Positions 19,102 through 23,199 of a stretch of DNA of 64,000 bases are shown piece after piece. Under the pieces are notes generated by a model. That model was not told the DNA's origin and did no database searches. It saw nothing but the letters and a program-made list of their open reading frames with translations. Each line of letters opens with the position of its first letter. The stretch's first letter is position 1. Position numbers and translations under genes: made by a program. The DNA comes from Alcaligenaceae bacterium (GTDB lineage Bacteria; Pseudomonadota; Gammaproteobacteria; Burkholderiales; Burkholderiaceae_B), in assembly GCA_013416395.1 (NCBI GenBank), contig JACCEP010000002.1:186001-250000 (forward strand). The letters run 5' to 3'.

Positions 19102-19327
19102 ACGACAAAACGGTCAAAATAGCCAAAGAGGAAAAAACCATACAGGCGTGCGCTTATACAGCGCAAACGCCAATGCTTTGACCCGAAAATCGTTTCTGGA
19201 CGGCTTGTCGAGCCCTATATATCTGACAGCTATTTATAAACCCTTATTCAATAATGGCTTCACAAGCATTCAGGCCTAAAATAGTCCACAATAAACGTTT
19301 TTCGTTTTGACTAGCCTGGATCCATCA

Positions 19328-20527
19328 ATGACTCGTATCGTCCTGTTTGAAAACATCCACCCCAGCGCCAAAGAAGTCTTCAACGCCGCCGGTTTTGACG
19401 ACGTCGTAACGCATGCTTCTGCATTGTCTCCCGAGCAATTGCGTGAAGCGGTACGCGGCGCACATGTGTTGGGTATTCGTTCCCGCACGCAGCTTGACGC
19501 GGGCGTGCTCGCCGAAGCCGCTGACTTGCGTGTTGTAGGGTGTTTCTGCATCGGGACCAATCAGGTCGATCTTGAATCCGCCATGTTGCGTGGCGTGCCG
19601 GTTTTTAATGCGCCATTTTCCAATACCCGTTCGGTTGCCGAATTGGTGCTGGGTGAAGCTATTTTGCTGTTGCGCCGCATTCCTGAAAAAAACGACCGTG
19701 TCCATCAGGGCTTCTGGGACAAAACTGCAGACGGTGCCTTCGAAGCGCGCGGTAAAACCTTGGGTATCATCGGGTACGGCAATATTGGTTCACAAGTGGG
19801 CACACTCGCCGAAGCCGCGGGCATGCGCGTTATTTTTCATGACGTCGAAGCCAAACTGCCCCTGGGCAACGCACGTGCCACAACCTCACTCAAAAAATTC
19901 CTGGCTCAGTCCGATGTAGTGACGCTGCATGTGCCGGGTGGTAAAGCCACTGAAAACATCATGGATGCAGAAGCCATCGCCTCCATGAAGAAAGGCGCCA
20001 TCCTTATCAACGCCTCGCGAGGTTCGGTGGTCGACATTGATGCACTCAATAACGCGCTAGATTCCGGCCACCTGTCAGGCGCCGCCATAGACGTGTTCCC
20101 CGTCGAACCCAAAAGCCGTGACGAAGCCCTTAAAAGCCCATTAATCGGCAAGCGCAACGTCATCCTTACCCCGCACATTGGCGGCAGCACGCAAGAGTCG
20201 CAAGAAAACATCGGCCGCGAAGTCGCCGAAAAGCTTTGCCATTTTCTGCTCAGCGGCACCACGAAAGGCGCTGTCAACTTCCCCGAAATCTCATACCAGC
20301 CCACCATGGGAACCGCCCGTATCCTGCACGTTCACCGCAACCTGCCAGGCGCCATGGGTACCCTCAGCAACCTGATGGCCGAGCACGGGCTCAATATTCT
20401 CAGCCAGCAACTGCAGACCAAAGGCCAGATCGGTTACGTCATCTCCGACGTCGAAGGCAAGGTTGACGACACCGTTGTCTCCGTGCTTAGAGCGCACCCG
20501 ATCACCGTGCGTTGCAATATCGTTTAA
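19328..20527 (+). CDS. serA: D-3-phosphoglycerate dehydrogenase
   Basis: First step of serine synthesis, oxidising 3-phosphoglycerate with NAD. The sequence tracks E. coli SerA closely: RSRTQLDAGVL, GCFCIGTNQVDL, NAPFSNTRSVAELVLGE, the NAD site LGIIGYGNIGSQVG, NASRGSVVDI, TPHIGGSTQESQENIG, and a C-terminal ACT domain (LHVHRNLPGAMGTLSNLM) that would bind serine for feedback inhibition. The start ATG 19328 is used instead of an upstream TTG at 19307. 399 aa is close to the 410 aa of the E. coli enzyme. Confidence 0.95.
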   Translation: MTRIVLFENIHPSAKEVFNAAGFDDVVTHASALSPEQLREAVRGAHVLGIRSRTQLDAGVLAEAADLRVVGCFCIGTNQVDLESAMLRGVPVFNAPFSNTRSVAELVLGEAILLLRRIPEKNDRVHQGFWDKTADGAFEARGKTLGIIGYGNIGSQVGTLAEAAGMRVIFHDVEAKLPLGNARATTSLKKFLAQSDVVTLHVPGGKATENIMDAEAIASMKKGAILINASRGSVVDIDALNNALDSGHLSGAAIDVFPVEPKSRDEALKSPLIGKRNVILTPHIGGSTQESQENIGREVAEKLCHFLLSGTTKGAVNFPEISYQPTMGTARILHVHRNLPGAMGTLSNLMAEHGLNILSQQLQTKGQIGYVISDVEGKVDDTVVSVLRAHPITVRCNIV

Positions 20528-20533
20528 TCTGGC

Positions 20534-20553
20534 GAGCGGCAAATATGCCGCTC
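20534..20553 (+). terminator. Hairpin after serA
   Basis: GAGCGGCA-AATA-TGCCGCTC is a perfect 8-bp stem seven bases after the serA stop, followed by CGTTAGCTTTG. It is a plausible terminator with a weak T-run. The interval 20528-21488 contains no gene I can support; it holds this hairpin and the three repeat features listed next. Confidence 0.5.
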
Positions 20554-20883
20554 CGTTAGCTTTGTAGGTTCATGCTCAACAAGGTACTGGCGTCGCAGTA
20601 GCGGCGTCACAACTTGATTGTTGTGGGCCTACAGAAGCCAGCGGCGCGAGTGCCCCGTAAAAATCGTACGATCGGGCACCTGCCGCAACGAGTCTGCTAC
20701 GCGCATCTTAAAAAGCCAATTGCGGTTACCCAGTAAAGAAGTCGCGCCTGCGCCTAAGTACAAGCGCTCCAGGCCCGACCTGCTTCTGTTGTCAGGCAGA
20801 AGGGTGCTCATGAAAAAGATCATGCAACAGTCCGCAACACAGCCATAAATATCGTCCGACATCGACTTGACTCGACTCGCAAG

Positions 20884-20914
20884 CACCAACACCAACACCA
20901 ACACCAACACCAAC
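20884..20914. repeat. Hexanucleotide repeat (CACCAA)5
   Basis: Five perfect tandem copies of CACCAA plus one base. Such short tandem arrays can change length by slippage. On the minus strand it reads as a Leu-Val run inside an open frame with no recognisable protein features, so I treat it as non-coding. Confidence 0.85.
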
Positions 20915-20987
20915 CTGGCCTCGTCGCTGACGCTGAGCATAGCGAAGATCACCACATACTAAGCAATAAGAATCTGCAAAGCGCCGC

Positions 20988-21183
20988 GGGCCAGTGCCCT
21001 GAGCGCCATTTGAGCGTGCCGTCAGGAAGGTCTTGGATCAGGGGCCTGAGAGGGCGTGCTGTCTGAGTTCAAAACAGTCCGGGGGACTGTTTTGGACGAG
21101 TTCACGCCCGTCCCCTGAGACAGGGCCTTCCTGACGGGTAGCCCCGCAGGGGCCGCGCGATTTGGCGCTCAGGGCACTGGCCC
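20988..21183. repeat. 196-bp nested palindrome
   Basis: The outer arms are perfect 21-bp inverted copies (20988-21008 and 21163-21183). Moving inward: CCGTCAGGAAGG/CCTTCCTGACGG (21019-21030, 21126-21137), TCAGGGG/CCCCTGA (21038-21044, 21112-21118), GGGCGTG/CACGCCC (21052-21058, 21103-21109), and a central AAAACAGTCC-GGG-GGACTGTTTT (21071-21093). All five pairs are in nested order, so the whole can fold as one long hairpin or cruciform. A side hairpin GCCCC-GCA-GGGGC is at 21141-21153. It resembles a REP/MITE-like element or structured RNA; no coding capacity. Confidence 0.85.
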
Positions 21184-21385
21184 GAGGCGCGACTTAAGAA
21201 ACCAACCGCTGCAGGCGCCCAGCAAAGACCCTACGATTTAATGCACAGGGCACAGGCACTGGCACTGGCACTGGCCCGCGGCGCGACTTAAGAAACCAAC
21301 CGCTGCGGCTCTGCAAAGAGCACACGATTTAATGCACAGGGAACAGGGCACAGGCACTGGCCCAGTGCGCGACTTAAGAAACCAA
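21174..21385. repeat. Two-and-a-half ~90-bp direct repeats
   Basis: Units start at 21174, 21268 and 21354 with GCACTGGCCC, each followed within ten bases by GCGCGACTTAAGAAACCAA. The first two continue with CCGCTGC, a variable part, then ACGATTTAATGCACAGGG; the third is cut off after ACCAA. GGCACT hexamers are duplicated between units (21255-21272). The first unit begins inside the right arm of the nested palindrome, so the two structures are joined. Confidence 0.8.
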
Positions 21386-21488
21386 ATATGGCATCCTCGC
21401 AAGACAGAGCGCCCACAAAAAAAGCGCTACCAAAAGGCAGCACCATAAAACCTCATCATCAAACCCTCAGCCGGCCGAAAAACCAACC

Positions 21489-21941
21489 CTACTTGGTAAC
21501 CTCACGCCGAGCCTCAAAAACCACAGGCACCTCAAACGGTGCTGGCGCAACCAACACATCAGCCAGCGTAAACCCATCAAGATGCTGCAAGAACGCCACC
21601 AGAGCCCCGTCAAGAATCGACCGCACCCCACAGCGCCCCGTCAGACTGCACTGGTTTGCATCCGTATAACACTCAACCAGTGCAAGATCATTTTCAGTGT
21701 CGCGCACCACCGCACCCAGATTAATTTGCTCAGCGGGCATGGCAAGCCGCATACCGCCATTCTTGCCCCGCACCGTTTCCAGCCAACCCCGCTGAGCCAA
21801 CCTATGCGTAATCTTCATCAAATGCGGCTCTGAAATACCATAAGCCCGTGCAATCTCGGCAATGGTACACAGCCGGTCGGGGCGCTCGCCCACATACATG
21901 AGCAGGCGCATTGCATAATCCGTCATCATGGTCAGCCGCAT
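21489..21941 (-). CDS. nsrR: Rrf2-family nitric-oxide-sensing repressor NsrR
   Basis: Iron-sulfur repressor whose cluster is destroyed by NO, releasing NO-detoxification genes. The N-terminal winged helix (MTDYAMRLLMYVGERPD, then IAEIARAYGISEPHLMKI) and the three cluster cysteines in ECYTDANQCSLTGRC (C-x6-C-x5-C spacing as in E. coli NsrR) are intact. I start at ATG 21941 (MRLTMMTDYAM); a longer frame overlaps nnrS. 150 aa is typical. It is the last gene of a globin-nnrS-nsrR unit, implying autoregulation from the operator at 23661. Confidence 0.88.
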   Translation of the reverse strand: MRLTMMTDYAMRLLMYVGERPDRLCTIAEIARAYGISEPHLMKITHRLAQRGWLETVRGKNGGMRLAMPAEQINLGAVVRDTENDLALVECYTDANQCSLTGRCGVRSILDGALVAFLQHLDGFTLADVLVAPAPFEVPVVFEARREVTK

Positions 21942-21972
21942 ATTGACACCTTTGAAAGCTGCATAATTGCTA

Positions 21973-23199
21973 CTACTTGGCCGCCTTGGCCTTGAGCACC
22001 GCATCAGGCCGCGGGCGGATCAACATGGGCACAAACCGCCACAAATAAAGACCCATGCATACGATCCAGCATGCGGCAGAAGCATGCAACAGCATCAGCG
22101 TGACGCCTGATGGCCACAAAGCAGCAAGGCGCAGCGCCACGGCAGCAATCATCAGGTAATAACTGAGCAGCATGCTGGCATCAAGCGCCAACGGCCTGCC
22201 AAGATGGCCCAACGCCGTGCGTGTAAGCATACCGATAATCAGGATGCAGAACCCGCCCATGCCGATAATATGTACATGCGTTGCGCTTCGGCCCAACGGG
22301 CTACTGGCACCAATACCTGCCATGTGTGCTGCCGCACATACCAGACCGATACCGATCATTGCGTAGCCCAGGTACAGAATCCATAACATAGGCTTGTGCA
22401 GCACTGAAAACGGCTTCCAGTGAGCAAGCTGCCACAGACTGATCAAACCCGTAATAGCAAGCGAAAGTGCCATGGCCCAGCTCAGGCCCACCAAACTAAA
22501 CACAATAGCCGCCACACCAAAGCCCAGTTGGTATTTGCCGCTGCCAACCAGCATGGGCAGCTTCAGCTCAGGCACCATACGCATGGAGAAAAATGGAATG
22601 ACCCGGCGTGCAATCAACAGGGCGACCACTGCCATGGCGATCAAGCCTTGATTAAAGTGCTCGATGAGAAGAACGTAATCGCCGTTTTTTGCTGCCAAAA
22701 GATACAGCACATTGGCCACGCCCAGCCCCAGAACCAGCAGCGGCAGGCCATAGTTGCGACGGCTTTTGCCTTTGATGACCACCCTAAGCAGGCTGAGCGC
22801 ACTGATAAGGAAAAATGCAGACTCACTGATCACACCCACGGTGAAGGCCGTATCGCCGCCAGTCAGGTAGGCAATGCGTGCGATCAGCCAAAGAATGCAC
22901 ACCAGACCCAGCGGGGCGCCTTTCAGCGGGTTGAAACCCGTCCAGGTTGCACTGGCAGTAAGCAAGAAGCCCAGTGCAATCGTAACGATAAAGCCCCAAA
23001 GCATCTCGTGGGCGTGCCACGCAACGCCCCACATTGGCGCAGGGATGAGTTGTGGCGCGAAAATCCAGATAGCGATGGAAACGAGCGCCCAGACAACACC
23101 CGCAATATAAAGGGGGCGAAAACCGAGGCTGAGGAAGGTGGTCAGGTCGGGCCGCGCCACACCAGCTTGGCGCTCCTGGGGGTGGATGAGTTCAGCCAT
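21973..23199 (-). CDS. nnrS: NnrS family haem-copper membrane protein
   Basis: A 408-aa polytopic inner-membrane protein with about twelve hydrophobic helices. Family features: FRPLYIAGVVWAL near the N-terminus, GVAWHAHEMLWGF with its conserved histidine, GRSATHVHIIGMGGFCILI, and MLTRTALGHLGRPL. NnrS proteins protect against nitrosative stress in other bacteria. The start overlaps the globin stop by eight bases, so the genes are coupled. The position between a globin and nsrR supports an NO-response role. Confidence 0.92.
   Translation of the reverse strand: MAELIHPQERQAGVARPDLTTFLSLGFRPLYIAGVVWALVSIAIWIFAPQLIPAPMWGVAWHAHEMLWGFIVTIALGFLLTASATWTGFNPLKGAPLGLVCILWLIARIAYLTGGDTAFTVGVISESAFFLISALSLLRVVIKGKSRRNYGLPLLVLGLGVANVLYLLAAKNGDYVLLIEHFNQGLIAMAVVALLIARRVIPFFSMRMVPELKLPMLVGSGKYQLGFGVAAIVFSLVGLSWAMALSLAITGLISLWQLAHWKPFSVLHKPMLWILYLGYAMIGIGLVCAAAHMAGIGASSPLGRSATHVHIIGMGGFCILIIGMLTRTALGHLGRPLALDASMLLSYYLMIAAVALRLAALWPSGVTLMLLHASAACWIVCMGLYLWRFVPMLIRPRPDAVLKAKAAK

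Follow-up and report, generated by a model that had tools for sequence, protein, structure and literature searches.

A long palindrome after serA belongs to a dispersed family of chromosomal hairpins with conserved pairing

What is the long palindrome that follows serA in the chromosome of an Alcaligenaceae bacterium? We analyzed a window of 64,000 nucleotides of this genome, in which a sequence-only reading had noticed a nested palindrome in a gene-free kilobase after serA. The inverted arms and the fold confirm the palindrome, and the spacer is real, running from the serA end at 20527 to the end of a convergent Rrf2-type gene at 21489. The element is slightly longer (~210 nt, 20981–21190) than the extent first given, 196 bp at 20988–21183. 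Its outer arms, read as perfect over 21 bp, are nested as described and measure 28 nt at 96% complementarity. The nesting of the arms was also right, and the fold adds an asymmetric side hairpin and internal loops that the arm list did not contain (Table 1). Folded as RNA, the + strand reaches -165.1 kcal/mol (shuffled mean -95.2, sd 5.5, z -12.7) and the - strand -144.9 kcal/mol (z -13.1); for both, 0 of 200 shuffles equaled the value. The element is not itself an intrinsic terminator: no terminator call spans 20981–21190 on either strand, and terminators sit beside the copies. A short tandem hexamer array (CCAACA type) lies at 20883–20916, ~65 bp from the element.

Table 1 Features of the palindrome and its surroundings in the window, and of the IS110 insertions in related copies
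Feature	Position	Strand	Remarks
serA-type gene (2-hydroxyacid dehydrogenase)	19307–20527	+	Upstream neighbor
Complete nested hairpin element with side hairpin	20981–21190	+	Better-folding strand
Outer stem	5' arm 20981–21008; 3' arm 21163–21190	+	28 nt, 96% complementary
Middle stem	5' arm 21019–21044; 3' arm 21112–21137	+	26 nt, 85% complementary
One-sided bulge	21045–21051	+	Position of the GGCAAG-type bulge of other copies (alignment, fold)
Internal loop, 5' side	21059–21067	+	CTGTYTGAG type
Apical stem-loop	21067–21097	+	Recurrent GTCC-N3-GGAC tip
Inner arms	21067–21080 and 21084–21097	+	14 nt, 93% complementary, 3-nt loop
Internal loop, 3' side	21098–21103	+	GAGTTC (model strand: AACTC)
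Side hairpin on the 3' arm	21141–21153	+	GCCCCGCAGGGGC
End motif just beyond the outer stem	21193–21203	+	CTTAAGAAACC; model strand GGTTTCTTAAG
Two partial tandem units	21204–21392	+	End motif and part of the 3' arm/side-hairpin region; spacing 76 to 94
Terminator-like hairpin with T-run of the Rrf2 gene	21423–21444	-	Between the Rrf2 gene and the element
Rrf2-family regulator	21489–22004	-	Convergent neighbor; true start may be downstream
IS110 insertion, locus L261	8881–10056
IS110 insertion, locus L265	2811–3986
IS110 insertions, locus L270	6155–7553; 8018–9408
IS110 insertion, locus L268	7877–9267
IS110 insertion, locus L259	from ~19102

A genome-wide BLASTN search, as the sequence-only reading had proposed, returned the window copy as the sole match in its own genome. 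This first picture of a single copy was misleading, because a covariance model revealed a family. The apical core pattern occurred in 5 of 31 genomes (a reversed control gave zero matches), and copies in genomes G001, G006, and G015 share one fold plan, in which outer, middle, and inner stems lead to an apical tip and one arm bears a side hairpin. From 14 copies we built the covariance model R1 (130 positions, on the - strand relative to the window), leaving out the matches from G014, two truncated copies (L139 and L142), and a near-duplicate second copy in L131. R1 matches the window copy at 21014–21138 on the - strand with 90 bits, and finds five further copies in the same genome (six in total) that BLASTN missed. 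The copies read are about 210–330 nt each. The G014 pattern matches proved to belong to another repeat, about 85 bp long, tandem and palindromic with a ACAGTCCTCAGGACTGT core (L042, ~1501–1671), which may be related to the Bordetella repeat BRE.

R1 matched at least 57 of 151 genomes of the taxonomic family and at least 23 of its 43 genera; these counts are lower bounds and absences are provisional, because at most 22 candidates were scored per genome. In 300 genomes of the order, for which at most 11 candidates were scored per genome and the same reservations hold, two genomes outside the family matched, weakly (E 1.2e-5 and 4.8e-4). Weak matches at G259:C21:80341-80446, G259:C23:414005-414110, and G428:C33:74652-74753 are possible distant relatives in other families. 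Four of 15 named genomes were positive: Candidimonas sp. SYP-B2681 with 27 matches (21 with E below 1e-6), Pusillimonas noertemannii with 19 (five below 1e-6; at least eight in the earlier family survey), Pusillimonas sp. T2 with six (four below 1e-6), and Paracandidimonas soli with one. The other 11, including three Achromobacter and two Bordetella, gave no R1 match. Several contigs end in or near copies (the starts of G001:C5, G441:C13, and G441:C16, and the ends of G001:C28, G015:C42, and G015:C86), so that assemblies seem to break at the elements and the true copy numbers are probably higher.

We also considered a plasmid- or phage-borne element and a known RNA. Five element queries had no match in phages or plasmids, a 1-kb locus query had no plasmid match, and two motif scans of viral contigs found nothing, with exact patterns that divergent copies would escape. 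Rfam gave no match to window positions 20500–21600 at E up to 1; at six other loci all matches fell below the gathering score and were mostly to microRNA precursors, the best at E 7e-05 and 35.8 bits against 64 required. The palindrome is a member of a dispersed, chromosomal, non-coding family that occurs in relatives of Pusillimonas and Candidimonas, each member one long interrupted hairpin with a side hairpin.

Is the fold itself conserved? Across 69 matches (65 distinct sequences), the 33 pairs of the model were paired in 91.1% of 2110 cells, compared with 61.7% after shuffling and 35.6–41.4% when partners were slid. Double changes filled 593 cells against 162 in shuffles and occurred in 30 of the 33 pairs, and the covariation score was 0.692 against 0.160 in the control. 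Pair-type richness was not above shuffles (80 vs 83.5). Since this alignment is fitted to R1 and its copies are related, we also tested orthologous copies, comparing nine intact copies at seven loci between genomes G110 and G129 (copies split by insertion sequences, and L259, were left out). Both sides had changed in 31 of 914 pairs, where permutation predicts a mean of 3.3 and a maximum of 10, and 28 of these 31 still pair. One-sided changes numbered 41, with the pair kept in 16. The covariation check that the sequence-only reading had suggested therefore comes out above both shuffled and slid-partner controls, and the compensatory changes between orthologues agree with it. Pairing is conserved while stem letters change. 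The case that had been set against a function, a single copy with neither relatives nor covariation, does not hold, as R1 relatives and covariation are both present.

The letters of the loops, bulge, and tip recur across genera, whereas those of the stems vary. Among close orthologues the loops are no more stable than the stems, with changes at 17 of 335 unpaired and 46 of 841 paired core positions, so loop conservation rests on the wider alignment. The elements are 83–98% identical between orthologues, above both 200-base flanks (59–92%) in eight of nine copies; the exception is L276/L277, where the element is at 83%, one flank is higher (90%), and the other is lower (59%).

Which strand folds? 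Among single mismatches in stems common to both strands, the model strand carries 111 A-C and 32 G-T, a lean that has the same direction in all 13 informative genera and holds at strong consensus pairs (22 vs 2). An A-C mismatch on the model strand is a G-U pair on the other, the window's + strand, and this non-model strand folds better in 69 of 81 copies. G-U totals in the predicted folds of the two strands are equal (409 vs 405), and recent one-sided changes between G110 and G129 show no clear strand bias (13 A-C, 10 G-T). Standing mismatches thus point to the window's + strand as the probable folded strand, and recent changes are neutral. Selection on a folded RNA or on single-stranded DNA would be consistent with the bias, as would transcription-linked mutation of that strand. 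Single-stranded DNA would likewise favor G-T over A-C on one strand, which counts against an RNA-specific reading. Of the early suggestion of a structured RNA, the structured single strand is borne out by covariation, recurring loops, and compensation, and the evidence on strand is mixed.

Palindromes could also stay complementary without selection if template switching between the arms kept correcting them. A single step can produce compensatory changes in a long hairpin, the loop changes between close orthologues, as common as those in stems, agree with such a process, and the partial tandem units together with an arm deletion in genome G002 indicate local instability. Template switching should, however, erase mismatched loops, yet the internal loops and bulge show the same letters from genus to genus. 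Arm correction would leave mismatches evenly spread over the strands, so it does not alone explain the bias present, and a purely mutational origin also sits poorly with elements that are more alike than their flanks in eight of nine orthologous copies. We consider it very improbable.

Where the copies lie offers a further clue. Convergent genes flank 50 of the 83 copies classified; 15 are at tandem sites with the model strand in gene sense, seven at tandem sites in the opposite orientation, and four between divergent genes, and seven could not be assigned; these gene calls come from simple scripts that differ for some flanks, and the set leaves out the 3-kb loci L145–L174 and the G129 orthologues. 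The tandem bias alone (15 vs 7) is modest. The family has a polarity: on the strand that corresponds to the + strand of the window, the closing letters resemble AAGAAC(C) and are turned toward the end of a gene. In 16 of 17 close pairs the two copies face each other (a count by eye that leaves out L248, whose copies are 5 kb apart, and the G129 orthologues), as they do in all six further close pairs in Candidimonas; the spacers between facing copies are not conserved, and no common promoter was found there. A terminator stands between gene and element in 24 of 67 copies, compared with 1.9 in mononucleotide shuffles and two on the far side, with a gene-stop filter applied on the upstream side only. 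At least a third of these copies therefore lie beyond the terminator of the bordering gene. Copies sit mostly outside gene 3' ends, with a polarity.

This placement would suit an RNA insulator. Opposite-strand transcripts heading toward a gene 3' end would fold the hairpin before they reach the gene and be stopped or cut there (e.g., by RNase III), which would shield convergent genes from antisense read-through. The favored strand is indeed antisense to the gene whose end it faces, 50 of the 83 copies lie between convergent genes, facing pairs give each gene end its own copy, and orthologous copies are retained and change by compensation. Yet 26 of the 83 copies occupy tandem or divergent sites, an empty site is known with its genes still in place, and copies are patchy within a single genus, with six R1 copies in the window's genome (G000), two in G002, and none in G004. 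An insulator accounts well for polarity and convergent sites and not for patchiness, and we regard it as an unlikely, if serious, alternative.

The copies show signs of both spread and loss. Six matches in G000 and G002 resemble one G000 copy over ~247 bp at 91–95%, five of them with both ends within 2 bases. These seven copies include one orthologous G000/G002 pair that differs in the number of partial units. At L176/L181, an orthologous copy in these two genomes, upstream partial units of ~107 bp form a variable-number tandem repeat; arrays of 13-nt units (GGTATGTCTGTAA type) lie directly past one element end in L176 (after ~5280), similarly in L181, and in L175, all from the window's genus. 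At the L177 locus, 662 bp including one element are missing from G002, leaving an empty site. The missing stretch holds more than the element, the duplication there is no longer than 3–4 bases, and the spacers at this locus are also short in G001, G003, and G004. The coding ends of serA and rrf2 lie ~69 bases apart in G001 and ~37 in G004, against about 960 in the window, and G002 has lost one arm and the tip at this locus. In G003, serA is followed by a copy that points the other way (rrf2 was not found in the region read), and this copy is probably an independent gain.

Between G110 and G129, all ten G110 loci compared align (G129 locus L266 was left out), and the position of the element is shared. 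At seven loci each genome retains one intact copy or more, and at L259, L261, and L270 the readable G129 copies are split. Since nearly all compared copies are shared, movement there is old. Some copies were gained recently, and others have been kept in place between species about 10% apart. The empty site and the shared ends are evidence of spread. At L183 (3300–5000), the flanks of a copy lie far apart in four relatives (G088, G110, G129, and G147), and the element therefore marks a rearrangement breakpoint.

The sequence-only reading had named a REP/MITE-type mobile element and terminal duplications as a check. A mobile repeat is supported by the dispersed relatives, shared ends, and empty site. 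On the MITE part the observations are mixed: inverted repeats form the outer arms, but the G000 copies carry the end motif on one side only, and repeated bases at the single empty site number just 3–4. The strict REP part does not stand.

Copies could also have spread in the manner of a SINE, as a bacterial retroelement whose RNA hairpin would be turned back into DNA in trans, with its own 3' end (AAGAACC) as the starting point and the places beyond gene ends and terminator T-runs as targets. The case for this is that all five partial copies matched in G000 and G002 share one end, the 3' end, and lack the 5' part (RNA sense), like 5'-truncated retrocopies; that in 24 of 67 copies this 3' end is turned toward a gene terminator, on its A-run side; and that standing mismatches mark the + strand as RNA-like. 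Two of the five partial copies are orthologous, and four lie in an array at the end of a full copy, where plain tandem duplication is possible. We hold retrocopying to be improbable.

How far does the resemblance to REPs go? Like REP, BIME, and REPIN sequences, the copies are extragenic, dispersed, lineage-limited palindromes that serve as landing sites for insertion sequences (REPs are short palindromes and often IS targets, PMC1525189). Two kinds of IS110-family element (PF01548, PF02371) interrupt G129 copies at two fixed places, one at the GAACTCG internal loop, which corresponds to window 21098–21103, in three copies (L261, L265, and L270), and the other at the apical tip, also in three (L259, L268, and L270). 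Alcaligenes faecalis is tabulated among genomes with predicted REP-like palindromes (PMC12306157). REPs measure 20–40 bp (PMC3733652), whereas the elements described here are 210–330 nt and have a side hairpin and several recurrent loops. REPs carry a conserved terminal tag such as GTAG or CGTC; in the window, GTAG precedes the side hairpin, but many of the copies listed have other letters at this place. The Y1 transposase domain PF01797 was found in four of 13 carriers and in none of six non-carriers, with five matches in G000 and one in G002, both of which have recent-looking copies. It was absent from nine carriers (G001, G005, G015, G033, G048, G056, G110, G129, and G146). Dependence on a resident RAYT in all carriers is thereby rejected, and genomes can hold many copies with no RAYT of their own; a RAYT could have moved the copies in G000 and G002. 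By size, side hairpin, and these nine carriers, the element is not a REP in the strict sense.

The same observations bear on a DNA-level account, in which the + strand would fold as single-stranded DNA and owe its movement, past or present, to a transposase of the Y1/HUH or a similar kind. Intergenic palindromes, partial tandem units, and IS110-type insertions resemble REP biology (IS targets: PMC1525189), PF01797 turned up in carriers alone among the genomes tested, including both with recent-looking copies, and of the mismatches in DNA, too, a G-T wobble is the mildest. Against it, most of the carriers tested lack PF01797, and the five matches in G000 are on other contigs or at least 66 kb from the six copies listed. 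We find this account doubtful, about on a par with the insulator.

Other small repeats were compared by description. ERIC, Correia/NEMIS, BOX, and RUP occur in other taxa and have smaller, simpler folds than our element. They resemble it as small, non-autonomous intergenic repeats with possible RNA effects (PMC3110155). BRE, about 90 bp long and reported from Comamonadaceae, one Azoarcus, and Bordetella (PMC3110155; Hot et al. 2011), shares with our element a home in Alcaligenaceae and relatives, a mostly intergenic location, some variable tandem units, and mobile-element features. It differs in size (~90 bp vs about 210–330 nt), and both Bordetella genomes lacked an R1 match; this separation, too, is by description. 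Rfam structured RNAs likewise have covarying stems and recurrent loops. Open-licence papers held no description of this element that we could find.

Taken together, we think there is about an even chance that the family is a large, REP-like, non-autonomous mobile element that acts through a folded single strand, likely RNA of the + strand, and is recognized by a putative protein. The folded strand would most likely be RNA of the window's + strand, and its recurrent loops may be bound by a putative protein of the host or of the element. This protein would place copies, or tolerate them, past the end of a gene, where the spacer is safe. Pairing would persist because paired stems are required for recognition or for a function of the fold.

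These elements add a large, structure-conserved, polarized class to the dispersed repeats of bacteria. Insertion of IS110 elements at two fixed places offers natural test cases for the choice of targets by guide RNAs. Selection on the fold is directly measurable, since species can be compared copy by copy at fixed loci. If the folded strand is RNA, the family raises the question of SINE-like elements in bacteria, or of RNA insulators between convergent genes.
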